The notes beneath the pieces are model-generated. The model was not told the origin of the DNA and ran no database searches. It saw nothing but the letters and a program-made list of their open reading frames with translations. From contig NZ_FOTD01000004.1 in assembly GCF_900114465.1 (NCBI RefSeq), forward strand, positions 151,660 through 198,281: a DNA stretch of 46,622 bases, written 5' to 3'. The DNA is from Trichococcus palustris. Its GTDB lineage: Bacteria; Bacillota; Bacilli; Lactobacillales; Aerococcaceae. Shown here piece after piece: positions 17,571 through 36,096 of this stretch (position 1 is the first letter of the stretch; the number at the start of each line of letters is the position of its first letter). Position numbers and translations under genes: made by a program.

Positions 17571-17852
17571 TTTATCGTTTTCCTGCCATCACATAATGTC
17601 TAGCGGTCCAAGCCTGCCTCTCGGAATAAAGATGAAGGGTCCTCTTGGCTCTGCGAGCCAAGACATACGGTTCGACTAACCTGCTGACGCAGGAAGTCTC
17701 TCAGCAATTGCGCTCTACGATGCTCATTTGCATGGTAGTCTTAGGAATTCATTCCTTAGACTAACCAGTACAAGGCGACTGCAAGGAGCGTTGCTACCTG
17801 TCAGATTTCCTAAATTTCTTTCGAAGCAGGGCGGGCTTGTCCCGCTTTTCTT
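17571..17852 (+). repeat. Structured modular repeat, copy A
   Basis: About 280 bp between the GtrB-like terminator and the stop of the leftward dehydrogenase gene. In plus orientation it holds these parts in order: a head with TCTAGCGGTCCAAG; CCTCTTG + arm GGCTC/GAGCC + CAAGACATAC; GACTA + arm CCTGC/GCAGG + AGTCTCTCAGCAA; a long arm of about 100 nt (17706-17798, with a TAGTCTTAGGAATTC/CCTTAGACTA stem); CAGATTTCCTAAAT; and a final hairpin GCGGG/CCCGC + TTTTCTTA (17831-17852). The linkers recur in the copies at 21.9, 22.9 and 35.8 kb. No open reading frame. Confidence 0.8.
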
Positions 17853-17855
17853 ATT

Positions 17856-18617
17856 TTAATAACTCGTCCAGCCGCCGTCGACGGTGAGGATGGCTCCATT
17901 CACATAGCTGGCATCATCGGATGCCAGGAAGAGGGCGGCGCCCGCAATTTGTTTGGAGGAACCGTAGCTCGGAATGAGGGGCATGCCGACGCCGGTTGTT
18001 TCTTGGCCAAATTTATCCAACTCTGTCATCGATTGGCCGATGTTGGTTGCGATGGCTCCCGGTGCAATGGCATTGCAGCGGATGCCTTTTTTCGCATACA
18101 TGAAGGCTGTATTTTTCGTCAAACCGATGATGGCATGTTTGGATGCCGTATAGGCTACGCCGGCACGACCGCCGTTCAAGCCACCGATGGAAGCGATATT
18201 GATGATGTTGCCGAAGCCTTGTTCCAAGAAAATGGCAACGGCTTTACGGGAAGCGTACATGGGTCCGTTGACGTTCACGGCAAAGACGTGTTCCCAGCGG
18301 GCGTTCTTGATGTCGCCTACCGGTTCGAAGCCATCCATGATACCCGCATTGTTCACGAGGATATCCAAATGCCCGAACATATCGACAGCCGTATCGATCA
18401 TCGCATTGTTGTCTGCTTCAACGGAAACGTCAGCTTTCAGGAAGATCGCCGCATTCGGGAATAGTACATTGATGTCATTGGCGACTTTTTCCGCGCCATC
18501 AAGATTGTAATCGGCGACGACCACTTTAGCGCCTTCCTTGGCAAACAGGTGACAAATTGCTTCACCCATGCCGGATGCGCCACCGGTTACAACAGCAACT
18601 TTATTTTCTAGTCTCAT
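17856..18617 (-). CDS. Short-chain dehydrogenase/reductase (SDR) family oxidoreductase
   Basis: A classical SDR of 253 residues reducing or oxidising an alcohol/ketone with NAD(P)(H). It has the cofactor motif TGGASGMGE (about 12-20), NNAG (about 90-93), a catalytic serine in NIASIGG and YTASK (Y and K of the active site), and ends GGWTSY. It resembles 3-oxoacyl-ACP reductase, glucose dehydrogenase and hydroxysteroid dehydrogenase types, and the substrate cannot be decided. The reading frame extends 22 codons upstream, but the ATG at 18617 has GGAGGA seven bases before it and fits the family start. Its 3' end abuts repeat copy A. Confidence 0.87.
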   Translation of the reverse strand: MRLENKVAVVTGGASGMGEAICHLFAKEGAKVVVADYNLDGAEKVANDINVLFPNAAIFLKADVSVEADNNAMIDTAVDMFGHLDILVNNAGIMDGFEPVGDIKNARWEHVFAVNVNGPMYASRKAVAIFLEQGFGNIINIASIGGLNGGRAGVAYTASKHAIIGLTKNTAFMYAKKGIRCNAIAPGAIATNIGQSMTELDKFGQETTGVGMPLIPSYGSSKQIAGAALFLASDDASYVNGAILTVDGGWTSY

Positions 18618-18653
18618 GATAATTCCTCCATCTATAGTAGAATTGATAGATAC

Positions 18654-18683
18654 AGTATAGCATGTATGCGTTTGCAAAGGCAA
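18654..18683 (-). promoter_or_regulatory. Promoter of the SDR gene
   Basis: Minus strand: -35 TTGCCT (18678-18683), 18-bp spacer, -10 TATACT (18654-18659) with an upstream TGC that makes it an extended -10. Confidence 0.65.
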
Positions 18684-18805
18684 TGTATGGAAGATTATTT
18701 GCTGTATAATAAGCTTGCACCGTTCGTGAAAAATGATGGAATCCCGTTTATCGTGTAGAATAGAAGGAACATAATACCCAAAGTGACGTGTGAGGGGGAA
18801 CTACC

Positions 18806-19429
18806 GTGGCAAAGTTTACATTCGACAAGGAAATCAGCTATTTCAAAACGGACGCTTCGACCAGGAGTACGATGAAACTGCTGAATAGTATCTTGGTGGC
18901 GATGTTGTTGTTTTTGGCTGTCATCTTTTATATCCTGTTGCACCTGGATGTCAACCAGTCCCCGGCCGTTTCCGACATCATCATTTTGCCGGAAGGCGGC
19001 ATAGAGCGGCCGTTGAAGGCAGCGGAACTGTTGGACGAAGGCTATTCTTTATCCGGGAAAGTCCTGATCACGCCATATGATCCCGAAGAGATGCAACTCT
19101 CCGGTGAGCCGATCTTTCAGGATGAGGACATCCTGCCGGAATACAGGGCAACCAGCACCTGGACAAATGCCGTCAATTCGGTGGCCATGATGGAGGAATA
19201 CGGATATAAAACCGCCATCGTCGTCTCCAGCGATTACCATATGAACCGGGTGAAATTCAGCTATGATAAGGCGGCCGCCGGGAAGGGCATCACCTTCACC
19301 TACGTTTCCGCCGGCGGTCCTGAGGGGAAACCCTGGATAGAAACCGAAACAGGACGCTATTTGGCAGTCCGTGAAATATTCAAAACATTGGGCTATTGGT
19401 TCGGCCTGTATCACTTCATCGATCTATAG
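18806..19429 (+). CDS. YdcF/DUF218-family membrane protein
   Basis: DUF218 proteins are membrane-anchored and some act in envelope or vancomycin-sensitivity functions; the reaction is not established. The 207-residue protein has a short basic N-terminus, one membrane helix (about 25-47) and an external DUF218 domain. The domain has the family pattern: IIILPEGGIERPLKAAELL, a central TSTWTNAVNS and IVVSSDYHMNRVKFSY. The start is a GTG with GAGGGGG upstream. It is monocistronic, with a terminator just after the stop. Confidence 0.78.
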   Translation: MAKFTFDKEISYFKTDASTRSTMKLLNSILVAMLLFLAVIFYILLHLDVNQSPAVSDIIILPEGGIERPLKAAELLDEGYSLSGKVLITPYDPEEMQLSGEPIFQDEDILPEYRATSTWTNAVNSVAMMEEYGYKTAIVVSSDYHMNRVKFSYDKAAAGKGITFTYVSAGGPEGKPWIETETGRYLAVREIFKTLGYWFGLYHFIDL

Positions 19430-19432
19430 GAT

Positions 19433-19459
19433 GGCGCCCTTTCGCAGGGCGTCTTTTTT
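19433..19459 (+). terminator. Terminator after the YdcF-like gene
   Basis: Hairpin GGCGCCCT/AGGGCGTC with loop TTCGC and six T residues. Confidence 0.85.
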
Positions 19460-19600
19460 GCGCAAATCTGACTATTTTGAAGACAAATATGCTCCCTGAG
19501 TAACATTTGGATAAACTTTTGGAATCTTTGTTTGCTTGACGCCTATTTTTAGAAGAAAGGCCGCGATGGTGCTATAATTCCGGTATAGGAGGCGTTTAAA

Positions 19601-20830
19601 ATGCTCGTAGAAATTGTTGTGGAAAATTTTTTTTCCTTCCTGGATGAAGCCACTTTTTCGATGGTGGCCAGCCCGATTGCGGAACATCCGGAATCGGTTT
19701 TCGGGAAGGACAATCTTGCGGTCACTAAATTGGCGACGATCTACGGAGCGAACGCCAGCGGGAAAAGTAATTTATTGAAAGCCATGAAGCTGGTCCAGGA
19801 AGGCATCCTACTTCAGAACGGTACGGCAAAGGAGTGGATCGGCAAAATCGAACCCTTCCATCTGGATGCCCGCAAGGAAAAGGAAGACACCCTGTTGGAG
19901 GTGAGCTTTCTGTTGTCCGGGAAAATCTACCGCTACGGCTTTTTTGTCAATCGGGAGCGGGTTACGGAAGAGTTCCTGTATGGGGAAGGGGAGGAAGAAA
20001 AGGATTTTTTCATCCGCAATCAAGACGGCGAAATCATCGGTGGGGAATGGACAGCTCTCTTCAAGGACATCCCTTTGGAAGCCAACCGTTTGGCCTTGTC
20101 CTCGCTCCTGCACAGCCCGTTGACGGCTGTGCACCCGGTATTGCAATCGTTTTTGAAGTGGTTCACGGATATGCGCATCATTTTGGATACTTCCAAAATC
20201 GGTCTGTCGCCTTCGATAGCGAGGATGCATCTGGAGAAATACAGGCACAATCTGTTGACGTTGGTGCAGGTGGCAGATCCTTCGATACAGGATATCGTCG
20301 TGCATGAAATCAACCATCCGAGTACCGGAAAAATCGAAGTGGCTTTCTTTGTGGTGAAAATGAGGCGGAATGAAGAAGGCGAAGCGGAAGCGTACTGCGA
20401 AAGGTTCCGCTTCCAGGACACGGAATCCGCCGGGACGGTAAAATTGTTGTCCCTGGCCGGACCCATCATCGAGGCGCTGGAAAAAGGCGGGCTGTTGATG
20501 GTGGACGAGATGGATACGCAATTCCATACACTGATGACAAGATATGTCCTGGAGCTTTTTTCTGGCCATTACAATGATAAAGGGGCACAGCTGGTCTATT
20601 CGACGCATGACATCACCAACCTGTCCAGCAGTCTGTTCCGGCGCGATCAGGTCTGGTTCGTGGAAAAGGATTCCTACAGCGCGAGTCATTTGACTTCGTT
20701 GGTCGAATATCGTTTCGATGATGAAGAACGGAAGAACAGTTTTGAATTTTTCCGCAATTATTTGAACGGAAAATACGGGGCCATCCCCTTTGTCCGTCCG
20801 GTAGATTGGTGGGTCGACGATGAACAATAG
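19601..20830 (+). CDS. RloA/AbiLi-type AAA ATPase
   Basis: Probable sensor ATPase of a two-gene anti-phage or abortive-infection module. The 409-residue protein is an SMC/ABC-like AAA_15/AAA_21 ATPase. It has the Walker A GANASGKS (49-56), a Walker B with catalytic acid LLMVDEMD (D302, E303), followed by QFH, and a STHD H-loop (H336). The N-terminal ENFFSF motif is typical of OLD/RloA-like ATPases. Its stop overlaps the start of the RloB-family gene by 11 bp, so the two are translationally coupled. The ribosome site TAGGAGG precedes the ATG. The link to RloA/AbiL is by architecture and partner, not by measured homology. Confidence 0.8.
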   Translation: MLVEIVVENFFSFLDEATFSMVASPIAEHPESVFGKDNLAVTKLATIYGANASGKSNLLKAMKLVQEGILLQNGTAKEWIGKIEPFHLDARKEKEDTLLEVSFLLSGKIYRYGFFVNRERVTEEFLYGEGEEEKDFFIRNQDGEIIGGEWTALFKDIPLEANRLALSSLLHSPLTAVHPVLQSFLKWFTDMRIILDTSKIGLSPSIARMHLEKYRHNLLTLVQVADPSIQDIVVHEINHPSTGKIEVAFFVVKMRRNEEGEAEAYCERFRFQDTESAGTVKLLSLAGPIIEALEKGGLLMVDEMDTQFHTLMTRYVLELFSGHYNDKGAQLVYSTHDITNLSSSLFRRDQVWFVEKDSYSASHLTSLVEYRFDDEERKNSFEFFRNYLNGKYGAIPFVRPVDWWVDDEQ

Positions 20831-21440
20831 GCGAAGAGAACATAAGCGCAAAATGGATTTCCGGCGGCCAATCGGAACGAGGCGGCCGGAGAAGACATTC
20901 CTCATTCTGTGCGAAGGGACGAAGACGGAACCGAATTATTTCCGCAGTTTCCATGTCATTTCCGCTCAGGTAGAAATAGTGGGGACGGGCATGAACACAA
21001 TGTCCCTGATCAACTATGCGCGGGATATCGTGGAGGACCGCCCGGATGAATACGACGAAATTTGGCTGGTGTTCGACAAGGATTCCTTTTCCCGGGACAG
21101 CTTCAATGAAGCGGTCTATTTCTGCGAAACGCATCATCGCGAAGGCTACCGTGCCGCCTACAGCAACGAGTCGTTCGAACTTTGGTATTTGCTGCATTTC
21201 GAGTTGGTCCGGAAAGCTGTTTCCCGTTTCCATTACCCGGATATGCTGTCGCGGCGGCTGGGATTCTTCTACAAGAAGAATAATCCGCATATGTACGAAA
21301 TCTTGAAATCCCGTCAGCCGAATGCAATCGCAAATGCTAAGCAACTATACAAGGGACGTTCCCCTTCGCCGGCCCGGGACAACCCTTCGACGACCGTTTT
21401 TATGCTGGTGGAGGAACTGAATAAACATTTGCGAAAATAA
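20820..21440 (+). CDS. RloB-family (TOPRIM-like) protein, probable effector
   Basis: RloB proteins accompany RloA ATPases and are thought to be the nuclease-like effector. The 206-residue product has a basic N-terminus and FLILCEGTKTEPNYF (E32, the TOPRIM glutamate). WLVFDKDSF (D86, D88, the TOPRIM DxD) and SNESFELWYLLHF (about 115-127) follow, all characteristic of the RloB family. Coupled to the ATPase by an 11-bp overlap. The same pairing is found in lactococcal AbiL and is analogous to the PARIS ATPase/TOPRIM pair. Target and trigger are unknown. No restriction-modification genes are adjacent. Confidence 0.82.
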   Translation: MNNRRREHKRKMDFRRPIGTRRPEKTFLILCEGTKTEPNYFRSFHVISAQVEIVGTGMNTMSLINYARDIVEDRPDEYDEIWLVFDKDSFSRDSFNEAVYFCETHHREGYRAAYSNESFELWYLLHFELVRKAVSRFHYPDMLSRRLGFFYKKNNPHMYEILKSRQPNAIANAKQLYKGRSPSPARDNPSTTVFMLVEELNKHLRK

Positions 21441-21552
21441 TTTGAAAATAAAAAAAGTTTCTAAAATGGTGTGCGTATATTACCCATGTAAGTACTATTC
21501 AAGCAGGGCAGACTTATAGAAAAGACATCATTGGATGGAAAAGAGGAATATC

Positions 21553-21807
21553 ATGTTTACGACATCATTTTTGGGTATGGACTTCATGGAAGACGGAAAA
21601 GGCGTTGTCCTTCATTTTGTTGAAGGAGAGGGGATTGCAGAGGATTATTTTTTCCGGACTGAGGAAGAGGCAACTGCGTTCTATACAGCTTGCCAAAGGC
21701 TTTGCGAAGAACTGAAAGAGGAACCGGTCGAAACGCAGACAGCCATTTTTCAAGAATTCCTGGACCTGAATATCGGGGAATTCCATTATAACCGCAGATT
21801 CTATTGA
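21553..21807 (+). CDS. Small hypothetical protein
   Basis: An acidic 84-residue protein of unknown function, rich in Glu and Phe, without membrane segment or recognisable domain. The open frame begins at 21535, but ATG 21553 has AAAGAGGAA six bases upstream, so it is the likely start. It lies 112 bp after the RloB gene and is followed by a terminator. Whether it belongs to the defence pair or is a separate gene cannot be told. Confidence 0.7.
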   Translation: MFTTSFLGMDFMEDGKGVVLHFVEGEGIAEDYFFRTEEEATAFYTACQRLCEELKEEPVETQTAIFQEFLDLNIGEFHYNRRFY

Positions 21808-21850
21808 TCCGCGAGAGCTATGAATAACCGGTCAACACAACGCTGCTGAA

Positions 21851-21888
21851 AAAACCCGTCATGCATTTGGCTGCATAACGGGCTTTTC
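21851..21888 (+). terminator. Terminator after the small gene
   Basis: Hairpin CCCGTCATGCA/TGCATAACGGG followed by CTTTTC, 44 bp after the stop codon. Confidence 0.8.
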
Positions 21889-22386
21889 GAAATGTTTCAC
21901 GCATTAAAAAAGTTGGCTAGCTTCACGGGTTAGCCCTTCGGAAAAGGGATGAAGGAACCTCTTGTCATCTTTGATGACTTAGAAACATGATACAACTGAC
22001 CGGTACGGTCACGTTGATTCCTTTATTTTTGGAAGTCTCTCAGCAATTGCGCTCTACGATGCTCATTTGAATGGTAGTCTTAGGAATTCATTCCTTAGAC
22101 TACCAGTACAAGGCGACTGCAAGGAGCGTTGCTACCGGCCAGATTTCCTAAATTGTCATGGCTCTTGCGATTTCAATCGCTTAATCCTGTTATCAGACTA
22201 TCCAAAATGCCTCGCAGTGAGGCCCTCTGATGTCGCATTGTGACGAATGAAGGAACCTCTTGAATCTTACGATTCAAGACATACAGTTCGACTAAGCGAT
22301 TGAAATCGCTAGTCTCTCAGCAACTTGACCGTTCAGGTCACAGTGTTTCCTCACTCAGGGCTGAACGAACCCGTTCAGCTTTTCTT
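21889..22386 (+). repeat. Structured modular repeat, copy B (tandem B1 + B2)
   Basis: Two units in tandem. B1 (21889-22155): head GCTAGCTTCACGGGTTAGCC, CCTCTTG followed by diverged arms (GTCATC/GATGAC, GACCG/CGGTC), AGTCTCTCAGCAA, the 100-nt arm seen in copy A, and AGATTTCCTAAAT. B2 (22156-22386): arms GCGATT/AATCGC and CCTC/GAGG, GGAACCTCTTG + AATC/GATT + CAAGACATAC, GACTA + AGCGAT/ATCGCT + AGTCTCTCAGCAA, TGACC/GGTCA, and GTGTTTCCT. It ends with hairpin GCTGAACG/CGTTCAGC + TTTTCTT (22360-22386). The last hairpin covers the stop codon of the leftward membrane-protein gene. Confidence 0.8.
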
Positions 22387-22755
22387 GCGGAACGTTTTAT
22401 GGAAATAGGTGCCGGAAGTGGCGGCAAAAACGCTGCAGATCAGATAGAAGAGTGCATACATGAAGGGCGACAGGGTAATCATTCCGCCCGTGGCATCGTC
22501 CATGCGCGTCGGCAATGGGTAGACCAGGCTACTCAACAGGAATAGGGCGGGCTGGAGCAACAGATAGTAGCCGGAAAAACCGTTGCGGTAGGTGTAGAAC
22601 GCTGTCACCACGATGGCTGCCAACGGGAAGATCATCGTCCATAATGTTAAGGTTGCGGTTGCACCGTCCTCCATCAAAAAAGGAATAGCCGGCACAACCA
22701 GGTGCAGGACCGCAAAGAAAAGCAGATAGTATGTCAGTGGTTTTATTTTTTGCAT
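22375..22755 (-). CDS. Small four-helix membrane protein of unknown function
   Basis: A 126-residue, strongly hydrophobic protein with about four membrane segments separated by short loops, ending in the basic tail FHKTFRKKS. No family was recognised. The frame is open from 22773, but the ATG at 22755 (MQKIKPL) has AAAGGAA upstream and is preferred. Its final three codons and stop (AGA AAA AGC TGA region) lie inside the terminal hairpin of repeat copy B, so the repeat shaped the C-terminus. Confidence 0.68.
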   Translation of the reverse strand: MQKIKPLTYYLLFFAVLHLVVPAIPFLMEDGATATLTLWTMIFPLAAIVVTAFYTYRNGFSGYYLLLQPALFLLSSLVYPLPTRMDDATGGMITLSPFMYALFYLICSVFAATSGTYFHKTFRKKS

Positions 22756-22787
22756 GGGAATTTCCTTTCGCATTTGGAATCATTCTT

Positions 22788-22796
22788 ATTATACCA
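22788..22796 (-). promoter_or_regulatory. Extended -10 of the small membrane-protein gene
   Basis: Minus strand TGGTATAAT, an extended consensus -10, 33 bp upstream of the ATG. The -35 is weak (GTTTCT). Confidence 0.6.
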
Positions 22797-22820
22797 GAAT
22801 AATTTCGGCAAGAAACAGCG

Positions 22821-22868
22821 AAACGGACAGGGAGCGCAACATCAGCTGCGCTCCCTGTCCGTTTTCTC
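22821..22868. terminator. Long inverted repeat, bidirectional-looking terminator
   Basis: Perfect 18-bp arms AAACGGACAGGGAGCGCA and its complement (22821-22838, 22847-22864) with an 8-nt loop, T-rich on the plus side. It may stop leftward transcripts coming from the amidase gene through repeat copy C, before the promoter of the membrane-protein gene. Confidence 0.7.
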
Positions 22869-22869
22869 A

Positions 22870-23275
22870 TTTGCTAGGAATTATAAAATTTTTTAATATA
22901 AAGAGCGCATCACTGAAGGTTTTTTAAAGGTTCCCAATCTGTTTCGCGCCATCACATGATGTCTAGCGGTCCAAGACTGCCTCTCGGAAGGAAGATGTAG
23001 GGTCCTCTTGGCTCTAACGAGCCAAGACATACTGTTCGACTAACCTGCTGACGCAGGAAGTCTCTCAGCAATTGCGCGGTATGCTCATTCAGGGCCAGAT
23101 TTCCTAAATTGTCATGACTCTTGCGATTTCAATCGCTTAGTCCTGTCATCAGACTATCAAAAATACCTCGCAGTGAGGCCCTCTGATGTCGTACTGTGAC
23201 ATCAGAGTACTTGACCGTCAAGGTCACAGTGTTTCCTTATTCGAGGCAGAGCGGGCTTGGACCGCTTTTCCCATT
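22870..23275 (+). repeat. Structured modular repeat, copy C (composite)
   Basis: About 400 bp. The A/T-rich head (TTGCTAGGAATTATAAAA ... AATATAAA) matches the head of copy D. It continues like copy A (TCTAGCGGTCCAAG; GGCTC/GAGCC arm; CCTGC/GCAGG arm) with a shortened third arm, then CAGATTTCCTAAATTGTCAT. From there it follows the B1-B2 junction (GCGATT/AATCGC, CCTC/GAGG), then jumps to TGACC/GGTCA and GTGTTTCCT. It ends with hairpin AGCGG/CCGCT + TTTTCCC (23250-23272). It stops at the last base before the stop codon of the LysM amidase gene. No coding potential. Confidence 0.8.
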
Positions 23276-23989
23276 TTATAATTTCTTCACTTTCAGCAGC
23301 TGTCCGATAACGATGACATCCGACTGAGTCTGGTTCCATTGCTTCAGGGCGTTGATCGTTGTGCCATGCTTGCGGGCCAACGACCAGAGGGTGTCGCCTT
23401 TGACGACACGGTGCAGGAGATAGGTTCCGGTCTGCCGAGAGGCGGTAGCAGGGAGAGCTGAAAAGCCAGATTCCACATCTTTCTTGAATTGGGCAAGCGA
23501 GATGCCCCAGCCGGCAAGGTAGCCATCCGGATCGGTGTGGGTGGTGCCGCCGATGTTTTTGGACACCCACGAATGGGTCTTGATGCCCAAGTCATGTACG
23601 GAAGCGCCGGTATTCAATGTGCAAGGGATGTCTGCCTCACTGGCCAATTGCTGCAGCAGCCAGACATAGGCCAGGTAATCCTTCGCGAAGGTCTCTTTCT
23701 TGTTTGTGCGGGCCAGCTCCACTTGGGCGTAGGCATAGCCGTTCGCCTTCGGTCCGACTCCCCATTGAACTTTCCCGGTCTGGGCGATTTGGACGATCCG
23801 GCCGCCGCCACCGACCCAATGGGAGACGAAGGCATTTTGCCAGTTCCTTTGCATGTAGCTGATTTCATTTTCCAGGCTGTTCTCCCCGACGTTGTTCGGG
23901 TTTCCGGATTCATGGGCGATGATCAGATTGCCGGCGCTCAGCTGATTTTGGTGGATGGCAAAGATTCTTTGTTCGATAGTGTAGGCCAT
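23276..23989 (-). CDS. LysM-containing N-acetylmuramoyl-L-alanine amidase without signal peptide
   Basis: An Amidase_2/PGRP-type amidase (about 1-165) joined to a C-terminal LysM domain (about 192-237, HRVVKGDTLWSLARKHG). Zinc ligands are H26 in IIAHESGN and the later His/Asp pair in THTDPDGYL. The 237-residue size, N-terminal catalytic domain and lack of a signal peptide resemble phage endolysins. It sits at the end of the leftward operon sigma factor-DUF1659-DUF2922. A terminator-like hairpin stands between DUF2922 and this gene, so its expression may be attenuated or separately controlled. The ribosome site AGGAGGAAAAAT precedes the ATG. How the enzyme leaves the cell is not evident, and no holin gene is adjacent. 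Confidence 0.88.
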   Translation of the reverse strand: MAYTIEQRIFAIHQNQLSAGNLIIAHESGNPNNVGENSLENEISYMQRNWQNAFVSHWVGGGGRIVQIAQTGKVQWGVGPKANGYAYAQVELARTNKKETFAKDYLAYVWLLQQLASEADIPCTLNTGASVHDLGIKTHSWVSKNIGGTTHTDPDGYLAGWGISLAQFKKDVESGFSALPATASRQTGTYLLHRVVKGDTLWSLARKHGTTINALKQWNQTQSDVIVIGQLLKVKKL

Positions 23990-24007
23990 ATTTTTCCTCC
24001 TATGTGT

Positions 24008-24040
24008 AAAAAAATACCGCCCGGGATCACGCCCGAGCGG
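24008..24040 (-). terminator. Intrinsic terminator/attenuator before the LysM amidase gene
   Basis: On the minus strand CCGCTCGGG/CCCGGGCGG (one G-U pair) followed by TATTTTTTT, in the 90-bp gap between DUF2922 and the amidase start. Confidence 0.75.
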
Positions 24041-24078
24041 CTGCTTTTCGTTGATGAAATCTTAATCGTTAGGGTCTT

Positions 24079-24312
24079 TTATTTGGCGTCCGTGATGACG
24101 TCTGTGATCGTACGTTCTACATAGCGTGCGCTGTTCACTGCCGCATAAGGATTCACGCCTTTCACTTCAAAAACGTTCAAGCCGATGATGGATGCCATTG
24201 CGGGCTGCAGTTCAGCGGCCGTCAAACCGCTCTTTGGATTTTTAACGGATAGGCTGCGTGTCTTCCCGTCGGCTGTACCGAATTTCAATTCTAATGTCAC
24301 TGTCGTATTCAT
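24079..24312 (-). CDS. DUF2922 small protein
   Basis: A 77-residue protein matching the DUF2922 pattern: LELKFGTADGKTRSLSVKNPKSGLTAAELQPAM followed by a conserved VFEVKG. Such proteins occur in Firmicutes next to DUF1659 proteins; no reaction is known. The ribosome site AGGAGGAAAAAC is nearly identical to that of the amidase gene. Second small gene after the sigma factor. Confidence 0.8.
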   Translation of the reverse strand: MNTTVTLELKFGTADGKTRSLSVKNPKSGLTAAELQPAMASIIGLNVFEVKGVNPYAAVNSARYVERTITDVITDAK

Positions 24313-24384
24313 TGTTTTTCCTCCTATGATTCATCTGTTTTGGGATATAAAGGGACTGGGTTACGGTTCGTTTGACTATTGCGA

Positions 24385-24591
24385 TTAGGCGATGCTGTAG
24401 CGGTTCTTTTCGACCACGACGGCGTAGGCTGCAGGCATGTCGACCAAACCGGCCACCGCTGTCTGGAATGTTTGCACTTGCTCAGGGGTGATGTCCGCTT
24501 TCAGGTTCGAGAACGACTGTTTGACTTCCTTTTCGTTCTCAAAATCATTGAAATATAACTCGATGTTTCCTTCTTCGTATTGCTTAACCAT
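24385..24591 (-). CDS. DUF1659 small protein
   Basis: A 68-residue protein with the DUF1659 pattern: KQSFSNLKADITPEQVQTFQTAVAGLVDMP, ending EKNRYSIA. Unknown function; the usual partner of DUF2922. The ribosome site GGAGGAA is six bases upstream. It follows the sigma factor gene after an 83-bp gap holding an inverted repeat TGTAAG/CTTACA, so a separate promoter recognised by the sigma factor is conceivable but not shown. Confidence 0.78.
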   Translation of the reverse strand: MVKQYEEGNIELYFNDFENEKEVKQSFSNLKADITPEQVQTFQTAVAGLVDMPAAYAVVVEKNRYSIA

Positions 24592-24674
24592 TTGGCATTC
24601 CTCCGTTTTCTTGTTTTGTAAGTGTCATGACTGCTTACACCTATAACGACGGACAGAATCGAAAAAGTGTAACC

Positions 24675-25220: not shown

Positions 25221-25314
25221 TTTGGTTTGCCTCCGCTAGGTTAGTGGGTAGCCGGATGCAAGGTCGGGTGACCCTGTGCATGCTCATCACGGCTTGGCAA
25301 GCTTGCTGAATGCT

Positions 25315-25344
25315 ATGTTAGATGAAATGCAGGAAAATCGTCAA
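25315..25344 (-). promoter_or_regulatory. Promoter of the sigma-factor operon
   Basis: Minus strand -35 TTGACG (25339-25344), 18-bp spacer, -10 TAACAT (25315-25320), about 95 bp before the ATG. The shared 284-bp divergent region is very AT-rich (mostly at 25330-25500) and would be where ComK-type AT-boxes act; none was assigned with certainty. Confidence 0.55.
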
Positions 25345-25504
25345 AATGACAAATATGATTAAAAATAAGACAAATAATGATAAAGTTAGTATTCTGTTAG
25401 TAATTAAATAAATATTGCTTAATTATTGGCTGTTTTAGATGAAATTATTTGTTAAATGGTGTATATTTTTTTTGGAAAATAAAAAATGGAGGTAGAGGTA
25501 TTTT

Positions 25505-28020: not shown

Positions 28021-28052
28021 GGGGAGGCAGAATATTGCTGGAGGTGGAACGG

Positions 28053-28889: not shown

Positions 28890-28891
28890 CA

Positions 28892-30139
28892 ATGACAAAG
28901 AACACAAACGATACAAAAACGATATACGCCATCGAGATGTGGCCGATAGAAAAGATCAAGGCTTTCCGGAAAGCGCTCCTGGATTGGTACGACAAAGAAA
29001 AACGCGATTTGCCGTGGCGCCGGACGAATGATCCCTACTGCATCTGGGTCTCTGAAATTATGCTGCAGCAAACGCGGGTAGATACGGTCATCCCGTATTA
29101 CTATAACTTCCTGAACAAATTCCCGGACATCGCCAGCCTGGCAACTGCCCATGAGGATGTGCTCCTGAAAGCCTGGGAAGGGCTCGGCTACTATTCCCGC
29201 GTCAAAAACATGCAGAAGGCAGCCCAACAAATAGTGGCGGACTACAACGGCGTCTTCCCGGAGGATCCGAAAGAGATCGCGAAATTGAAGGGCATCGGGC
29301 CGTACACTGCGGGGGCGGTTTCCAGCATCGCCTTCCAGCTGCCGGAACCGGCCGTCGACGGAAACGTCATGCGGGTCATGAGCCGGCTGTTCGAAATCGA
29401 TGCGGACATCGCGAAACCGGCCAGCCGAAAAATATTTGAAGAAATCGTGCGCGAGCTGATCGATCCGGACCGCCCGGGCGATTTCAATCAGGCTTTGATG
29501 GATTTGGGCTCCAGCATCTGCACACCGCTTAACCCAAGGCCGGAAATAAGCCCGATCAAAGCATTCAATGCCGCTTATCAGCATGGCACGATGCACCTGT
29601 ATCCGGTCAAAAGCAAGGCCAAGAAACCCGTGCCGATGAACCTGCAGGGAATCATCCTGCAGAACAAAGACAAGGAATTCCTTCTGGAAAAGCGGCCCAA
29701 GACCGGTCTGCTGGCGGATTTTTGGACCTTTCCGCTGCTTCAGGTGGAGCCGGTCGTGACGGACAGAGAAAACAAGATAGTCGTTCAAACGGAATTGCTT
29801 GTGGCGGAAGCTTACCCGACAGAGGAAGTCCACGATAAGAATCCGGAAATCGCCTTTTCCCAAATCGAGGAAGCCTTGACGGCGGCCGTTGCAGCGAAGT
29901 ATCAGCTGCATCCGATTTGGCTGAAGGCTGAGACCGGTTCGGTCAATCATGTCTTCAGCCACATCAAGTGGCATATAACCGGCTACTACGGCAGGGTTTT
30001 GGATGCAGGAAACGGCACTTTGCCGGAGAACTGCAAATGGGTAAGCGAACATGATTTTCCAGCTTACGCCTTTCCGGTCCCACAGCAAAAAATGTGGCAA
30101 CAATTCCAGCAGAATACCCGAAAAGAATTTAACCTGTAG
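28892..30139 (+). CDS. mutY: A/G-specific adenine glycosylase, lacking iron-sulfur cluster ligands
   Basis: Removes adenine mispaired with 8-oxoguanine. The 415-residue protein has DLPWRRTNDPYCIWVSEIMLQQ (catalytic E55), the helix-hairpin-helix LKGIGPYTAG (about 131-140) and the catalytic aspartate D156 in VDGNVMR. A C-terminal NUDIX-like 8-oxoG recognition domain (about 250-400) includes FSHIKWHI. The usual four-cysteine iron-sulfur loop is absent: only C210 (SSICTPLN) remains, followed by PRPEISPIKAF without Cys. Cluster-less MutY enzymes are known in Lactobacillales. The start ATG is three bases after recX; ATG 28937 is an alternative. Confidence 0.93.
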   Translation: MTKNTNDTKTIYAIEMWPIEKIKAFRKALLDWYDKEKRDLPWRRTNDPYCIWVSEIMLQQTRVDTVIPYYYNFLNKFPDIASLATAHEDVLLKAWEGLGYYSRVKNMQKAAQQIVADYNGVFPEDPKEIAKLKGIGPYTAGAVSSIAFQLPEPAVDGNVMRVMSRLFEIDADIAKPASRKIFEEIVRELIDPDRPGDFNQALMDLGSSICTPLNPRPEISPIKAFNAAYQHGTMHLYPVKSKAKKPVPMNLQGIILQNKDKEFLLEKRPKTGLLADFWTFPLLQVEPVVTDRENKIVVQTELLVAEAYPTEEVHDKNPEIAFSQIEEALTAAVAAKYQLHPIWLKAETGSVNHVFSHIKWHITGYYGRVLDAGNGTLPENCKWVSEHDFPAYAFPVPQQKMWQQFQQNTRKEFNL

Positions 30140-30172
30140 CAGTCTAAAGTATCGCTTTCTTTTTCCATTCTA

Positions 30173-30181
30173 TGCTATACT
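30173..30181 (+). promoter_or_regulatory. Extended -10 of the DUF402 gene
   Basis: TGCTATACT, a good extended -10, 84 bp upstream of the chosen start. Confidence 0.5.
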
Positions 30182-30265
30182 ATTCAGTGAACTGAAAGTT
30201 GAGAGTCGTTGCAAGGAATGGTCCTGAAAAACGACTCAAATAGATGTAGAAAGTTGGGCACCGTG

Positions 30266-30811
30266 ATGCATAATCCTCGTGAGGGAGAATTCATCACCAT
30301 AAAGAGTTATAAGCATGACGGCAGCCTGCATCGAACCTGGCGTGACACCATGGTATTAAAAACAAGTGACCAATCTATAATCGGTTGTAATGATCACACC
30401 TTAGTAACGGAAGCTGACGGACGTCGCTGGGTTACCAGGGAACCGGCGTTGTTATACTATCATAAGCATTATTGGTTTAACATTGTCACGATGATCCGCC
30501 AAAAAGGTGTATCTTATTATTGCAATTTGGCCTCGCCTTATGCGATTGACCAAGAGGCTTTGAAATACATCGATTATGACTTGGACATAAAAGTTTTTCC
30601 GGATGGTGAAAAACGTTTGCTAGATGTAGATGAGTATGAATTGCATCGCAATCGCATGAATTACCCAAAAGATATCGACCATATTTTGAAAGAAAACGTT
30701 AAGATTCTGGTAAGCTGGATCAACGAAGAAAAAGGTCCCTTCTCCAAGGAGTACGTTGACTTATGGTATGAAAGATACTGTCAGCTGTCGCACAATCAGC
30801 AAAACTCGTGA
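30266..30811 (+). CDS. DUF402 nucleoside tri-/diphosphatase (YgaC/Ntdp-like)
   Basis: Homologues such as the staphylococcal Ntdp hydrolyse nucleoside tri- and diphosphates with divalent metal. The 181-residue protein carries the family hallmarks [58 protein letters not shown] and [26 protein letters not shown]. The reading frame is open from 30209, but alignment by eye to the family places the start at ATG 30266 (or the adjacent GTG 30263). The ribosome site is weak (GAAAGTTGGG). Followed by a terminator. Confidence 0.87.
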
Positions 30812-30827
30812 TGAATTTTACAAAAAT

Positions 30828-30864
30828 AAAATCAGTTAACTTTAAAAGTGACTGATTTTTTTTG
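30828..30864 (+). terminator. Terminator after the DUF402 gene
   Basis: Arms AATCAGT/ACTGATT followed by a long T-tract. Confidence 0.8.
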
Positions 30865-30996
30865 TTGGGAAATGTGGACAATTCCTTAATTTTCTAAAAA
30901 AATCGTGCAATCGGACAACAGTTATATTAAGATAAATATAGTTAAATTATTGAAAAGTAAATATATCAAACATTTTTAGACGATGGAGGAGATTCT

Positions 30997-32142
30997 TTGA
31001 AAAAAAAGGAAGTTTTGATTGTTACCCTAATGGGGATCGTGACGATTGCCATCATCCTTTTTGGGTATAAATATTCTGCCGATAGAAAAGAGCAACTACT
31101 GCTTGAGGGCGCACAAAAGAACGAACAACCGGCAGTACAAAGCTCCGCTGAGATGGACACATCCGAAGCGGAGAAAGCCGCAGCGCTGGAAAAAACATTG
31201 CAGACCTTTGCCGAGAACAGGGGCGCCGCTTCTGTAGTCGATTATCTGCAGTATATCCAATACCACAATAAACAAATCAATGTTGCCTTTTTTGGGGATA
31301 TAGCCGAAGAAGCTTCATGGGCCAAAACGGCAATGACGGATATCCAATCGGCGTACGCACTTACCATGAATCTCTCTTATTTCAGTCATTCTGGAGAAAG
31401 TAGCGCAGTTTATCTGAACGGCGGCTATTCGCAACCAGTAGCGGCAAGCAATGCGGATGTCATTTTTTATGTTTTGCCGACAAAGGCCGATCAGACAGCC
31501 GATATCGCTCGGGCGCAATCCACCGAAAATATTTTCAAAGTGTATGATGAAATCAAAGCGGCATCGCCGAATGCGTTGATTGTGTTGGTGACGCCACCTC
31601 CGGCGGAAGCAAAAATGAATGTTTTGAATTCCAGATCACTGGATTACCGGGATTATGCCACCAGCTTGGCCGAAGCAAATCAGACGTACAATGTGCCGTT
31701 TTATGATCTGCATGCGGACACATTGCAGGAATTGGAAAATACAGGAGCGGCAGTATCGACCATTATGGATGAAGCCAAACTTGGTTTGAATGAATCGGGG
31801 GCCACCTTATTCGGAACGGTCTTTGAAAAGAACTTGAAGACAAAAACGGTGAATACGACGTCAGGCCTGTATGTGGAAGGCGAAAAACCGGCAATGGAAT
31901 CCATCATTAAAGAAACGGTTGAAGAAAACACGGTTACGCAAGAGCCAGTATACGTGGAGCCGGTTTATGAAGCGCCTGCATCTTCCTCTGAATCAGTCTA
32001 TGAGGCGCCGACAATAACTGCTCCAGCTCAGGATACGACAACATACGATACAACCGCAACGGATTCAACAACAGGAACATCAGGGACAACAACAGGGACA
32101 ACAACAGGAACAACAACGCAAGCAACCACCGTTGTGGAATAA
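30997..32142 (+). CDS. Membrane-anchored SGNH-hydrolase-like surface protein
   Basis: The 381-residue protein has a basic N-terminus, one membrane helix (about 5-24), an extracellular domain (about 60-290) and a Thr/Gly/Pro-rich tail without LPXTG. The domain resembles SGNH/GDSL esterases: a block I-like NVAFFGDIAEE, VIFYVLPTKAD, LIVLVTPPPAEA and a block V-like YNVPFYDLHAD. The block I serine is replaced (GDI instead of GDS), so it may be inactive or use another residue. Start is a TTG with GGAGGAG upstream. Such proteins are often linked to wall-polymer modification. Function remains inferred from fold only. Confidence 0.62.
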   Translation: MKKKEVLIVTLMGIVTIAIILFGYKYSADRKEQLLLEGAQKNEQPAVQSSAEMDTSEAEKAAALEKTLQTFAENRGAASVVDYLQYIQYHNKQINVAFFGDIAEEASWAKTAMTDIQSAYALTMNLSYFSHSGESSAVYLNGGYSQPVAASNADVIFYVLPTKADQTADIARAQSTENIFKVYDEIKAASPNALIVLVTPPPAEAKMNVLNSRSLDYRDYATSLAEANQTYNVPFYDLHADTLQELENTGAAVSTIMDEAKLGLNESGATLFGTVFEKNLKTKTVNTTSGLYVEGEKPAMESIIKETVEENTVTQEPVYVEPVYEAPASSSESVYEAPTITAPAQDTTTYDTTATDSTTGTSGTTTGTTTGTTTQATTVVE

Positions 32143-32206
32143 GCTGATGCCTTTTTGGCAGGGAAAGCAGCAATCCTCATCTGGAAATCGAATAGTCTAA
32201 AAAAGG

Positions 32207-32444
32207 ACGGGGCTGGGACAAAAGTCCTAGCCTCGTTCGCATTTCCTAACAATTAATCGTAAACGTGTTCTGAATTGCAGACACCACTCCCGTTTCGAAA
32301 CGGGCTTTCGTCCACAAAAGAGGTGAACGAAAAGCCAGTTTCTCCAACGTCCGGGTGTCTAAACACAATTCATCACACTCTGTTTAAACGTGTTCCAAAA
32401 AGCAGACCTGAAGTCACTTCACGAATAATGCTCAGACGGTCTGC
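32207..32444. repeat. Dispersed repeat family 2, copy 3, with flanking inverted repeats
   Basis: Contains a GGCTGGGAC/GTCCTAGCC hairpin (32207-32236), the 34 bases shared with 27873-27906 (32242-32275) and a branched structure 32272-32372. That structure has outer arms AGACACC/GGTGTCT and inner CCCGTTT/AAACGGG and GGCTTTCGT/ACGAAAAGCC hairpins. CATCACACTC and GTTTAAACGTGTTCC (reverse of the post-galU copy) follow, then a GCAGACC/GGTCTGC pair (32402-32444). An open frame crossing it is not a gene. Confidence 0.65.
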
Positions 32445-32635
32445 GACCATCCTCCGCTTATTCGCTCCAGTTATTCGGGTCTATACGCTTTTTATCTCAC
32501 TCTCGTTTTTTCTCAATTATGAGGAGAAATTATTATTCGAAAGTACAACACTAAATCGCCTGTTTCACAAACTTTAGTTTGTTTAACATCGCAACTATTA
32601 ACTCTGCATTTCGGGGAAGGCATTTTCTTAAATAC
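32445..32635. other. AT-rich non-coding stretch before the pullulanase promoter
   Basis: No gene seen. A small perfect hairpin ACAAACT/AGTTTGT (32567-32582) is the only clear structure. Confidence 0.4.
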
Positions 32636-32664
32636 TGGCTAATCCCAGTGAAATAAAGTATAAT
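32636..32664 (+). promoter_or_regulatory. Promoter of the pullulanase gene
   Basis: -10 TATAAT (32659-32664) with a 17-bp spacer and a weak -35 TGGCTA (32636-32641). Leader of about 155 nt. Confidence 0.6.
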
Positions 32665-32682
32665 AAGACTATAGAAATCTGT

Positions 32683-32696
32683 TGTAAGCGTTTTTC
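32683..32696 (+). promoter_or_regulatory. cre box downstream of the pullulanase promoter
   Basis: TGTAAGCGTTTTTC matches 12 of 14 positions of the CcpA consensus and lies about 12 bp after the likely transcription start, a roadblock position for catabolite repression. Confidence 0.65.
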
Positions 32697-32825
32697 GTCA
32701 AGTGTGGTACTTGCTGTTTAAAAGGAGTGTTTTCACAAGTGGGTAGGCAACTTTGAAATTCAGAGTTCAATGATCGTTATGGAGACGCGTTTCAATGCAA
32801 AGAGAGATTTCTTGGAGGTAGTGTC

Positions 32826-34805
32826 ATGTACATACAAGTTGATGAACGGAAACGGACTGACGTTCTATCGACTAAATATTATCAATATAACATAGATAAT
32901 TTAGAGGATAGACCAGAACAGATTGTTGCGTCATCCGTTTTTGATAAGAAGTATTCTTTTGATGGAACATTAGGGGCAAACTATTCACCAACACGGACCA
33001 TACTGCGGGTATGGGCTCCTACAGCAGAAAGTGTTGATGTGATATTGTATGATGGCCTTTACGATGATAGAAATGAAAGATACGCCATGGAAAAAGGCGA
33101 AAGAGGGACTCACGAACTTCTTTTAATGGGAGATTATGCGGGCAAAGCCTATAAATACGCCATTACCTTCCCGAATGGGGATGCCGTTGAGACTGTGGAT
33201 CCCTACAGTTATGCGACGACTGTCAATGGTGAACGCTCCGTAATTTTGGATTATGCCAATACCAATCCGGAAAATTGGGGCAAACGATTAGATCCGATTA
33301 CTTCTCCTGTCGATGCTATTATTTATGAATTACATATTCGTGACTTCACGATTTCTCCAGACAGTGGCACCAAAAACAAAGGCAAATTCCTCGGCGTGAT
33401 TGAAGCAGGCACAGCCTCTCCGGATGGAAGGACGACCGGCTTGGATTATCTGAAGGAATTGGGTGTTACACATGTTCAGATTTTGCCGATGGCAGATTTT
33501 TTCACAGTAGATGAAAAGAATCCTTCAAAGACATATAATTGGGGCTATGATCCACAAAACTTCAACGTGCCTGAGGGATCATACGCGACGGATCCCTATC
33601 AACCGGAAGTTCGCATACTGGAAATGAAAGAGATGATTCAGGGACTTCACGACGCAGGAATCCGTGTCATCATGGATGTCGTTTACAACCATGTCTATTT
33701 GCCGAAAGTGCACCCGTTGGAAAAAACGGTCCCTGGCTATTACTTCCGCCGTTATGCAGACGGTACGCTGTCGAATGGGACCGGTGTCGGGAACGATACG
33801 GCATCGGAACGCTACATGATGCGCAAATATATCGTCGACAGTATTACCTATTGGGCCAAGAACTTCAACTTGGATGGTTTCCGTTTTGATTTGATGGGAA
33901 TCCATGATGTGGATACGATGAACGTCATTCGTGCGGCTTTGGATGAAATCGATCCATCCATAATCATGTTGGGAGAGGGCTGGAACCTCAACACGAATTT
34001 GGCTCCGTCTGAAAAAGCTATCCAACAGAATGCGGATCGCATGCAGGGCATCGCACAATTCAATGATGCTTTGCGGGAAGCTGTAAAGGGATCGGATTTC
34101 GACTTTGGCAACGACACGGGGTTCATTACAGGGAAACCGTTTATGGAAGGATGGGTTGCGACGAATTTGCAGGGTGGAGCCTATTATCCCGCAAATCGCG
34201 CCAGCTATACCGATCCTGCTCAGATGGTGCAATATGTGGAAGCGCATGACAACCTAACCTTATATGACAAATTGCTCAACTCCATGCCCTGGGATGATGA
34301 AGAAACCCGCGAAAGACGCCACCTGTTGGCAAGCAGCCTGGTGCTGTTGAGTCAAGGCGTACCTTTTATCCATGCCGGCCAAGAATATATGCGGACGAAA
34401 CATGGGGTGGAAAACAGCTACAACGCTCCGGATGAAATCAACCGGATGGACTGGAAACGACGCGATGAAAATGGAGCTGCGGTGGACTACCTAAAAGGGC
34501 TGATCCAGTTAAGAAAATCAGAACCGTTGTTCCGTTTGAAATCGATAGCAGAAATCAAACAGCACATGAATATTTTGAAGGCCGAATATCAGATTGTCGT
34601 ATACCAACTGGAAGATGAATCTGCCCTCTACTATGTCGTATTCAACGGCCAAGGAAACGCCATCGATTTCGATGTGGAGTCCGGCGACTATTTCGAGCTC
34701 ATCCACGATTGCAAGAACTATATGGATGCCCCCCAAACTCTGGAGAAATTATCTAAGGTGCATGTCGAAAGACTTTCCACAACCGTAATCGTAAAACTGA
34801 AATGA
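32826..34805 (+). CDS. pulA: Type I pullulanase (intracellular debranching enzyme)
   Basis: Hydrolyses alpha-1,6 branches of pullulan, glycogen or starch fragments. The 659-residue protein has an N-terminal CBM48-like domain (ANYSPTRTILRVWAPTAESVDVILYDG, about 55-85) and the diagnostic type I pullulanase motif YNWGYDP (about 238-244). The GH13 residues are the nucleophile D355 in GFRFDLMG, acid/base E384 in MLGEGWN and the late aspartate in EAHDNLTLYDK. No signal peptide, so it acts on imported maltodextrins or stored glycogen. The ribosome site TTGGAGGT precedes the ATG. Its cre box fits co-control with the maltose operon at 40.4-45.2 kb. Confidence 0.95.
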   Translation: MYIQVDERKRTDVLSTKYYQYNIDNLEDRPEQIVASSVFDKKYSFDGTLGANYSPTRTILRVWAPTAESVDVILYDGLYDDRNERYAMEKGERGTHELLLMGDYAGKAYKYAITFPNGDAVETVDPYSYATTVNGERSVILDYANTNPENWGKRLDPITSPVDAIIYELHIRDFTISPDSGTKNKGKFLGVIEAGTASPDGRTTGLDYLKELGVTHVQILPMADFFTVDEKNPSKTYNWGYDPQNFNVPEGSYATDPYQPEVRILEMKEMIQGLHDAGIRVIMDVVYNHVYLPKVHPLEKTVPGYYFRRYADGTLSNGTGVGNDTASERYMMRKYIVDSITYWAKNFNLDGFRFDLMGIHDVDTMNVIRAALDEIDPSIIMLGEGWNLNTNLAPSEKAIQQNADRMQGIAQFNDALREAVKGSDFDFGNDTGFITGKPFMEGWVATNLQGGAYYPANRASYTDPAQMVQYVEAHDNLTLYDKLLNSMPWDDEETRERRHLLASSLVLLSQGVPFIHAGQEYMRTKHGVENSYNAPDEINRMDWKRRDENGAAVDYLKGLIQLRKSEPLFRLKSIAEIKQHMNILKAEYQIVVYQLEDESALYYVVFNGQGNAIDFDVESGDYFELIHDCKNYMDAPQTLEKLSKVHVERLSTTVIVKLK

Positions 34806-34815
34806 AAACTGTAAA

Positions 34816-34850
34816 GCAGCTGTCGCTACAAAGGCCCAGCTGTTTTTTTT
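34816..34850 (+). terminator. Terminator after pulA
   Basis: CAGCTG-based hairpin (34816-34822 with 34837-34843) followed by eight T residues. Confidence 0.7.
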
Positions 34851-34957
34851 GCTGGAAGGGACAATCCGATGATTCTTGCGGTCGCATATCTTTCCGTAAT
34901 TTAGTACAATAGAAGAGATACAGGAAAACGGAAAATGATGGGATGGGTGGTTTTCGG

Positions 34958-35770
34958 ATGATCAAAATGATAGCAATCGATATTGACGGCACACTGGTGA
35001 ACGGCGAAAAAGTGATGACGGAACGGGTGAAAGGCACAATCAAAGAAGCGATGCGACGTGGCATCAAAATCGTTCTCTGCACCGGCCGTCCGCCTGCGGG
35101 CATCAAGCCTTACGCGGATGAATTGGGATTTGAAACAGGGGAAGATTACATCATTGCACAAAATGGAGCCTATATTATCCGGACAGACACAAAAGAAGTG
35201 GTCTATAAAAAAACACTGAGCTTGCCTGAAGTGCAGGAATTATATGAATTTGGGAAAGGCTTTGCGGCTGGGACGCTGTTGGTGACGGAATTCCATTACT
35301 ACAGCTTGGAAGATGAAATCACGGAGCCCATGTGGGAGGATGCCAAACTCGTCAACATGGAAATCACTATTTTGGACCCTAAAGAGATGACCGAAGAGAT
35401 GAATTTTATGAAAATCCTTTATATCGGTGAGGAAAGTGATGTCGATGTCATCGAGTCGGCAGTGCCGGACCGCATCCGTGATAACTATTACGTTGTGCGC
35501 AGCCAAAAATATTTGGTGGAAGTCATGGCCAAGGATACAAATAAGGGAATCGCATTGACGAAGTTGGCTGAACGATTGGGTATTCCGATCGAAGAAGTCA
35601 TGGCTTTGGGTGACGGCGAAAATGATTATGAAATGATCCAAGCGGCCGGATTGGGTGTCGTGATGTCGAATGGGACCGACAACTTGAAAAGCATCGCGAA
35701 CGAAATCACCTTATCCAATGAAGAGGACGGGGTAGCCCATGCCATCGAAAAATGGGCGTTCACAGAATAA
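34958..35770 (+). CDS. Cof-type HAD-IIB phosphatase (YidA-like)
   Basis: A cytoplasmic sugar-phosphate phosphatase of the HAD superfamily. The 270-residue protein has the nucleophile motif AIDIDGT (D8, D10), motif II CTGRP, a lysine in the C2B cap region and motif IV GDGENDYEMI, then the typical GVVMSNG. Substrate is unknown; relatives dephosphorylate sugar phosphates. ATG 34958 (MIKMIAID) is preferred on family length and a GGTGG site; ATG 34943 adds five residues. Confidence 0.88.
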   Translation: MIKMIAIDIDGTLVNGEKVMTERVKGTIKEAMRRGIKIVLCTGRPPAGIKPYADELGFETGEDYIIAQNGAYIIRTDTKEVVYKKTLSLPEVQELYEFGKGFAAGTLLVTEFHYYSLEDEITEPMWEDAKLVNMEITILDPKEMTEEMNFMKILYIGEESDVDVIESAVPDRIRDNYYVVRSQKYLVEVMAKDTNKGIALTKLAERLGIPIEEVMALGDGENDYEMIQAAGLGVVMSNGTDNLKSIANEITLSNEEDGVAHAIEKWAFTE

Positions 35771-35780
35771 CGCGAAAATT

Positions 35781-35825
35781 AAAACAGGGTTACAGAAATC
35801 GACTTGATTTCTGTAACCCTGTTTT
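35781..35825. terminator. Long perfect terminator after the HAD gene
   Basis: Twenty-base perfect arms (35781-35800, 35806-35825) with core CAGGGTTACAG and loop GACTT, A-rich on one side and T-rich on the other, so it can work in both directions. Confidence 0.9.
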
Positions 35826-35831
35826 GTGCCT

Positions 35832-36096
35832 AGCTAGGAAGTAATAAATTTTTTTGATATAAAAAAGCATCATTACAAGTTTTTCACAGATTGCTAATTT
35901 GTTTCATGCATTTAAAATTTGTCCAGCTTCACGGGTTAGCCTTTCGGAAAAGGGATGAAGGAACCTCTTGTCTCTGCGAGCCAAGACATACTGTTCCACT
36001 AAGCAATTGAAATTGCTAGTCTCTCAGCAACTTGACCGCTTTTTGGTCACAGTGTTTCCTTAATCAGGGCTGAATGAACCTGTTCAGCTTTTCTTA
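35832..36096 (+). repeat. Structured modular repeat, copy D
   Basis: About 265 bp. Head TAGCTAGGAAGTAATAAATT ... GATATAAA matches copy C; then CCAGCTTCACGGGTTAGCC and CTTTCGGAAAAGG as in B1; GGAACCTCTTG with a partly paired arm + CAAGACATAC; CACTA + AGCAAT/ATTGCT + AGTCTCTCAGCAA; TGACC/GGTCA; GTGTTTCCT; final hairpin GCTGAA/TTCAGC + TTTTCTTA (36069-36095). It ends at the stop codon of the leftward FUSC-type gene. The simplest, single-unit copy. Confidence 0.8.

Follow-up and report, generated by a model that had tools for sequence, protein, structure and literature searches.

The four intergenic loci A to D in a stretch of 46,622 nucleotides (nt) of Trichococcus palustris DNA (contig NZ_FOTD01000004.1, positions 151,660 to 198,281; hereafter the window) carry hairpin-rich repeats whose arms differ in base sequence from copy to copy and yet stay paired. 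The question they raise is whether such repeats are a structured RNA family, held in shape by selection, or a piece of mobile DNA; the original prediction, made from the letters of the window, allowed for both. We think it likely that they belong to a family of small mobile repeats, non-autonomous and specific to the genus, which works like the BOX elements of the pneumococcus. That half of the original prediction, a non-autonomous BOX-like mobile element, is borne out by dispersed copies restricted to the genus, by empty sites in relatives, by identical copies at unrelated sites and by modular cassettes.

A 269-base query taken from copy D gave 61 matches in its own genome (best non-self expectation value (E) ~1e-42), which merged into 40 loci; the 36 that lie outside the window were fetched. 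A model of the left end of the repeat found matches in 13 of 13 Trichococcus genomes, with 5-48 in each and 363 in total, 40 of them in the window's own genome, and matched none of 63 other genomes of the same family under filters stricter than those applied to the Trichococcus set. In a DNA search of 100 genomes, all 13 of the genus were matched and one of the 87 others; we regard this lone match of 34 bases (E 4e-4) as chance. The DNA search gave no match in 40 genomes of the order outside the family. A pattern search of 84,980 species genomes, a collection from which records of the window's own genome may be omitted, returned nine loci, every one titled Trichococcus. No match was found among plasmids and phages by blastn with one long copy as query, and no viral contig held one exact 19-base pattern. 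The Rfam search that the original prediction had proposed was run on the window and the 40 loci and gave no match on the element at gathering score; a permissive search gave 15 sub-threshold matches (best E 0.056), three of which run into the start of copy A. In the open-licence literature on Trichococcus we found no paper describing a hairpin repeat family. Judged by sequence, the hairpin-cassette repeats are best read as a new repeat family for Trichococcus, specific to the genus.

To ask whether occupied sites have empty counterparts, we joined the flanks of nine sites without the element and searched them in eight genomes, including the source genomes. For seven of the nine sites the joined flanks aligned without interruption in at least three other species, and one further pair of empty and occupied alleles was found separately. 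Genome G001 contains three identical 210-nt copies (L141, L142 and L143) at unrelated sites, and a hairpin with a T-run precedes each of them; the identity of the three copies ends 6-8 bases to the left and 0-1 bases to the right of the profile ends, and these limits argue for recent copying of exactly this unit. The genes that flank copies A, B and C in the window have conserved counterparts in relatives (68-78% DNA identity), and no element was found at any of these three positions in the 10 relatives for which the loci were fetched. The stretch holding copy B, a small reading frame and copy C measures ~1,575 nt in the window versus ~390-400 nt in G004, G009, G011 and G012. Insertion of the element is thus well supported; the chemistry of insertion is not.

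A full copy has two ends, with profiles of 113 positions (left) and 37 positions (right), which may enclose hairpin cassettes, and the arms of the two ends are able to pair across the whole copy. Applying profiles for the left end, the core and the right end to the loci supplied to the profile script, we obtained 145 end-to-end copies, 136 of them distinct. Three places are doubled among the 145 rows (L046/L193, L047/L207 and L044/L128), and L022 and L023, identical copies close to where contigs C37 and C25 of the window's genome end, probably represent an assembly overlap; counts are therefore given on the 136 distinct sequences. Still included in both totals is a 766-nt row, L140, that falsely pairs ends across tRNA genes. 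Model R1 retained just two base pairs and was used as a sequence profile. Copy lengths cluster at about 210, 270, 335, 400 and 470 nt. One slot holds either segment a or the core cassette C (66 versus 67 of the 136 distinct copies, with both in none and neither in three), while cassettes B, 4, 5, 6 and p are optional hairpins. In the outer stem, the last 25 bases of the left end form 19 pairs with the right end in a single register, and the 3′ side has a bulge of 5 bases. This register is common to three sequence types, namely GCGGTCCAAGCC/GGCTTGGACCGC, ACGGGTT/AACCCGT and, in two copies, AAGTC/GACTT. Minimal type-2 hairpins occur three times in the 13 genomes; a minimal type-2 hairpin at L140 (G001) has the stem ACGGGT/ACCCGT and stands directly 5′ of a tRNA gene run. 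The right end alone is terminator-like.

All four copies in the window are present where the original prediction placed them, as confirmed by profile matches, and are made up as follows (all on the + strand).

17510..17564, inverted repeat with 23-base arms, behind the upstream gene and directly 5′ of copy A
17573..17853, copy A by profile match: left end (truncated), followed by core cassette C, hairpin cassette B and a right end
17635..17710, core cassette C of copy A by profile match: two hairpins with the linkers CCTCTTG, CAAGACATAC and AGTCTCTCAGCAA
17817..17853, right end of copy A, with a terminator-like stem-loop at 17828-17848
21876..22386, copy B by profile match: a composite interior, containing two core units, between a truncated left end and a right end
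22250..22325, second core unit of copy B (B2), nested inside another cassette, with arms AATC/GATT and AGCGAT/ATCGCT
22351..22386, right end of copy B by profile match
22877..23270, copy C by profile match: complete left end, core cassette, cassettes 4, 6 and p, right end
22877..22989, left end of copy C: a tip rich in A+T, small hairpins and the 5′ arm of the outer stem, which pairs at long range
23237..23270, right end of copy C: 3′ arm of the outer stem and a T-rich tail
35781..35825, inverted repeat with 20-base arms, behind the upstream gene and directly 5′ of copy D
35838..36096, copy D by profile match: core cassette and small hairpin between a complete left end and a right end
36061..36096, right end of copy D, with a terminator-like stem-loop at 36066-36091

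The inverted repeats that precede A and D are perfect, and the truncated left ends of A and B begin at profile positions 60 and 48, respectively. The linkers and arms read as first described: the first arm is GGCTC/GAGCC in A and C and AATC/GATT in B2, and the second is CCTGC/GCAGG in A and C, AGCGAT/ATCGCT in B2 and AGCAAT/ATTGCT in D. The original prediction did not mention the first arm of copy D, GTCTC/GAGCC, which contains a T-C mismatch. Folding energy is clearly unusual for A, B and C (z scores of -3.5, -5.6 and -6.1, respectively, with 20 shuffles each) and is not unusual for D (z -0.9, 20 shuffles). A terminator scan flagged the right ends of A and D as predicted terminators and left those of B and C unflagged. 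Promoter-like sites over 17400-36300, counted for the whole stretch and not separately for the left ends, number 27 versus 26.4 in shuffled sequence, which is the chance rate.

Most copies lie immediately 3′ of the T-run of a hairpin that resembles an intrinsic terminator, and in the direction of that hairpin. In 98 of the 134 copies whose flanks suffice for the test, a hairpin and T-run lie in the 45 nt that precede the left end; for the window's own genome the figure is 21 of 31. The same test succeeds at 45 of 670 and at 31 of 402 positions used as controls, and in 10 of 134 cases when the hairpin faces the other way. Within the window, copy B fails this test, and A and D directly follow their inverted repeats. 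Gene orientation was taken from the longest stop-free frame, a crude measure from which we draw little. At L006 and L131, in two species and with different cassettes, the element is found between a leader and the start of an ileS-like gene; we take the leader to be T-box-like from its motif, and Rfam gave no match there.

The interior of the element changes while its surroundings stay in place. In 24 groups, copies share both flanks between species, and 12 of the 24 differ in cassette content. The flanks shown for L043 and L188 are near-identical, as are their left ends, yet one has C in place of a. At the L198 site, the left end as shown is the same in G012 and G010 and nearly so in G009, with G010 carrying C and B and the others a. 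Copies with the same ends and flanks but different cassettes point to recombination between copies, by which cassettes are swapped inside a standing insertion.

We turn now to the paired arms, in which the original prediction saw compensatory change and hence strong evidence for selection on RNA (or single-strand DNA) structure. The pairing itself is real. In the outer stem, after four misparsed rows had been dropped from the 78 distinct sequences, 1217 of 1406 cells are paired, against a shuffled mean of 0.735, and the folding of 134 distinct copies gives a mean z of -5.0, with 105 of the 134 below -3. The complementary strand, however, folds alike (mean z -5.1, with 114 of 134 below -3; p 0.28 for the difference in z), and raw folding energy slightly favours it (p 0.011). 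RNA under selection is expected to gain G-U pairs on its own strand. Summed over four stems, we counted 18 G-T and 26 A-C appositions, hence no wobble excess on the sense strand (G-T/A-C of 7/15 in the outer stem, 9/6 in cassette B, 0/2 in cassette 4 and 2/3 in the second core hairpin). The first core arm is mismatched in 49 of the 65 copies caught by a recount. As for covariation, two-sided change is seen at 11 of the 19 outer-stem pairs overall, but at 2 of 19 within type 1 and 1 of 19 within type 2, and this scarcity within any one type means that covariation in the outer stem lies mainly between allomorphs. Single sites with matched changes within type 1 are GCGTTCC/GGAACGC, GCGGTACAAG/CTTGTACCGC and GCGATTCAAG/CTTGAATCGC. 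The claim of covariation survives as regards genuine pairing and some two-sided changes within stems, and yields in the outer stem, where most of the change separates allomorphs; the step from there to strong evidence for selection on RNA, as distinct from single-strand DNA, is not supported, given the equal folding of the strands, the missing wobble excess and the frequent mismatch in the first arm.

One copy suggests how an arm may come to match its partner. At L150 (L150/L290, G001), a left end is followed by nine bases and then by a perfect 21-base complement of its own arm, which includes an unusual base and is without the usual bulge; this is one of 152 left ends examined. The stretches of G010 and G002 at this site hold no recognisable copy, and no ancestral copy was found there to polarise the change. 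On its sequence, the arm copy is likely what hairpin template switching would leave. The process is described for RNA genes in PMC8794818, which argues that RNA hairpins can arise and be maintained by template switching. Taking together the like folding of both strands, the lack of wobble excess, the covariation between allomorphs and the L150 arm copy, we therefore read the arms as a DNA-level product: they probably stay complementary largely through copying at the DNA level and through the movement of whole hairpins, to which selection on the right-end terminator may add. We put forward only tentatively, as a possibility about which we are more doubtful than confident, the fuller proposition of a terminator-seeking mobile repeat in which the apparent covariation comes from DNA template switching and cassette exchange, with no RNA selection.

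If the family consists of mobile repeats, an enzyme encoded elsewhere would move the ends of the repeat, homologous recombination among the many copies would swap the cassettes, and the arms would be kept complementary as hairpin DNA is re-copied by template switching and cassettes are moved as whole hairpins. Any effect on neighbouring genes, as a terminator, an mRNA 3′ end or a leader, would be secondary and specific to the locus. Several observations weigh against this account. Terminal inverted repeats are not evident by eye (left AGGAAAG versus right complement AGAAAAGC). Of the seven sites with empty alleles, two show a clear target duplication of a sequence that the empty allele has in a single copy. 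At the L198 site this is TTAGCC, in G012 and G010; at the L180 site it is (T)GATGCC, about nine bases with one mismatch in the G002 copy. Duplication is ambiguous at one, L202, and also at the further empty/occupied site, where the T-run itself repeats; it is unseen at the other four, in two of the three identical G001 copies and in the copy that G009 has at the L198 site. Family-wide, the signal is weak, with duplications of at least 7 bases in 10 of 132 copies versus 3.2 expected, and so is that of the best duplication register (identity 0.416 versus 0.368 over 88 copies, z 4.0), which was picked from 189 registers. Some sites are occupied in a scattered manner across species, which also fits gene flow or loss. 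Two-sided changes within a stem occur at 5 of 15 pairs in cassette B (23 rows) and at 4 of 6 pairs in the second core hairpin (12 rows). No mobilising gene was identified. A search with the left tip in three genomes gave 45 matches, and of the 30 loci examined 29 are ordinary left ends and one is a tip only; an autonomous parent sharing the left tip was not found among these 30 of the 45 tip matches, whose neighbours were not screened for transposases. At L268 (G010) the left tip stands alone, behind a hairpin resembling a right end and just before a small gene that is PII-like by a reading of its translation.

Some of these points would sit more easily with a variant of the mobile-repeat explanation in which the same repeat is moved as single-stranded DNA by a transposase of the IS200/IS605 type (HUH, Y1). 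IS200/IS605 transposition is oriented and is not known to make a target duplication, and an insertion route of this kind would account for some of the observations. Insertion is oriented and falls behind a T-run similar to the right tip of the element itself (TTTTCTTA), the ends have hairpins, and two of the identical copies are free of duplication. The alleles at the further empty/occupied site can be explained without one, as can the copy of G009 at the L198 site, which follows TTTTGTTA and has TTTTCTTA as its right tip. The family also shares with REP/BIME and IS200/IS605-derived elements its palindromic, non-autonomous, multicopy character and its hairpins near the ends, and Y1_Tnp is found in 12 of the 13 genomes. 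Unlike what such elements would lead one to expect, however, the eight Y1 loci fetched from 47 listed Y1_Tnp matches include none with a left- or right-end profile match, which leaves us without a resident IS200/IS605 parent among them; G009, a genome 98% complete with 17 copies, has no Y1 match, and two sites bear apparent duplications. We consider the variant unlikely. Less likely again is copying of a retrotransposing RNA into terminators by a reverse transcriptase acting in trans, a 'bacterial SINE' (short interspersed element), which we hold to be highly improbable. Group IIC introns target terminators, and the Trichococcus repeats resemble them in being inserted behind terminator hairpins, with a 3′ end formed by a terminator-like tail; among 12 loci fetched for reverse transcriptases, an ordinary copy occurs close to one (L096) and there is a weak match to the left end at another (L088), and L160 has a group II intron next to it. 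Yet no copy in the window or the 40 loci scanned matched an intron model, and RVT_1 was not found in 7 of the 13 genomes (two of the seven being 51 and 63% complete), among them the window's own, with its 40 copies.

Two further explanations were weighed. A structured RNA family, whether non-coding RNA or cis-regulator, that ends in its own right-end terminator and whose structure is kept by RNA selection would agree with the low folding energies across the 134 copies, with one outer-stem register filled by three sequence types and paired well above the shuffled level, with the pairs that change on both sides in cassette B and in the second core hairpin, and with the 24 groups in which the element is kept at the same site in at least two species. 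We judge it distinctly unlikely, since the other strand folds equally well and shows no deficit of wobble by comparison (G-T 18 versus A-C 26 on the sense strand), cassettes come and go at the same site, the folding of copy D is ordinary, and Rfam offers no match at gathering score. A cis-acting terminator or 3′-end element, kept by the host at useful places and not a parasite, is suggested by the predicted terminators at the right ends of A and D (B and C being unflagged) and by the location of copies behind genes. Against it, close species differ in which sites are occupied, a terminator-like hairpin already precedes most copies, and some copies stand where termination should hurt, such as L034, between polA-like and mutM-like genes, and L006, just before an ileS-like start (names from reading translations); we find it quite improbable.

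How closely does the family, read as mobile repeats, resemble those already described? The BOX elements of Streptococcus pneumoniae, in the parts of PMC3049150 that deal with them, are dispersed repeats of 67-637 bp in which variable inner modules stand between a 5′ and a 3′ module; they are rich in stem-loops, confined to a few streptococci, overrepresented between convergent genes and thought to be non-autonomous. The Trichococcus repeats have the same modular layout and many dispersed copies, a likeness of architecture. They also place different end types around the same inner cassettes, much as the BOX-type families of S. suis are there said to have two different end pairs around the same inner modules (PMC3049150). 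They differ from BOX in their oriented insertion behind a terminator-like hairpin and in having a right end that is itself terminator-like, in possessing two mutually exclusive inner cassettes and three end-stem allomorphs with one register, and in swapping their cassettes rather than repeating them in tandem; terminal inverted repeats, as noted, are not evident. SPRITE of S. pneumoniae, as characterized in the same parts of PMC3049150, is likewise a terminator-like hairpin repeat near gene 3′ ends, but is one duplex with a T-rich tract and lacks cassettes. The Trichococcus family probably works like BOX; as terminal repeats are not evident, we do not file it as BOX.

Other repeats were observed alongside the family. 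A 34-base sequence occurs at two places in the window, 27873-27906 and 32242-32275, with 100% identity; it is possibly a second dispersed repeat family, and an end similar to it is fused to a lone right end in L033. Two copies of a 69-base direct repeat, 86% identical and 102 bases apart, lie at 27683-27853. In G009 (L127 and L301), a larger palindromic repeat (GCGGGACAGAACGC...) occurs once within an element and, elsewhere, by itself.

Two-sided base changes are usually taken as proof of functional RNA, and here they are seen in a mobile repeat with two strands of equal folding, beside direct examples of cassettes exchanged whole and of an arm that copies its partner exactly. If the tentative proposition above is true, with template switching and cassette exchange as the source of the covariation, the family would be a natural decoy for covariation-based RNA discovery, and the templated repair of arms could be watched between close species. 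With many copies per genome, the Trichococcus repeats would serve for testing an origin of hairpins by template switching of the kind that PMC8794818 describes.

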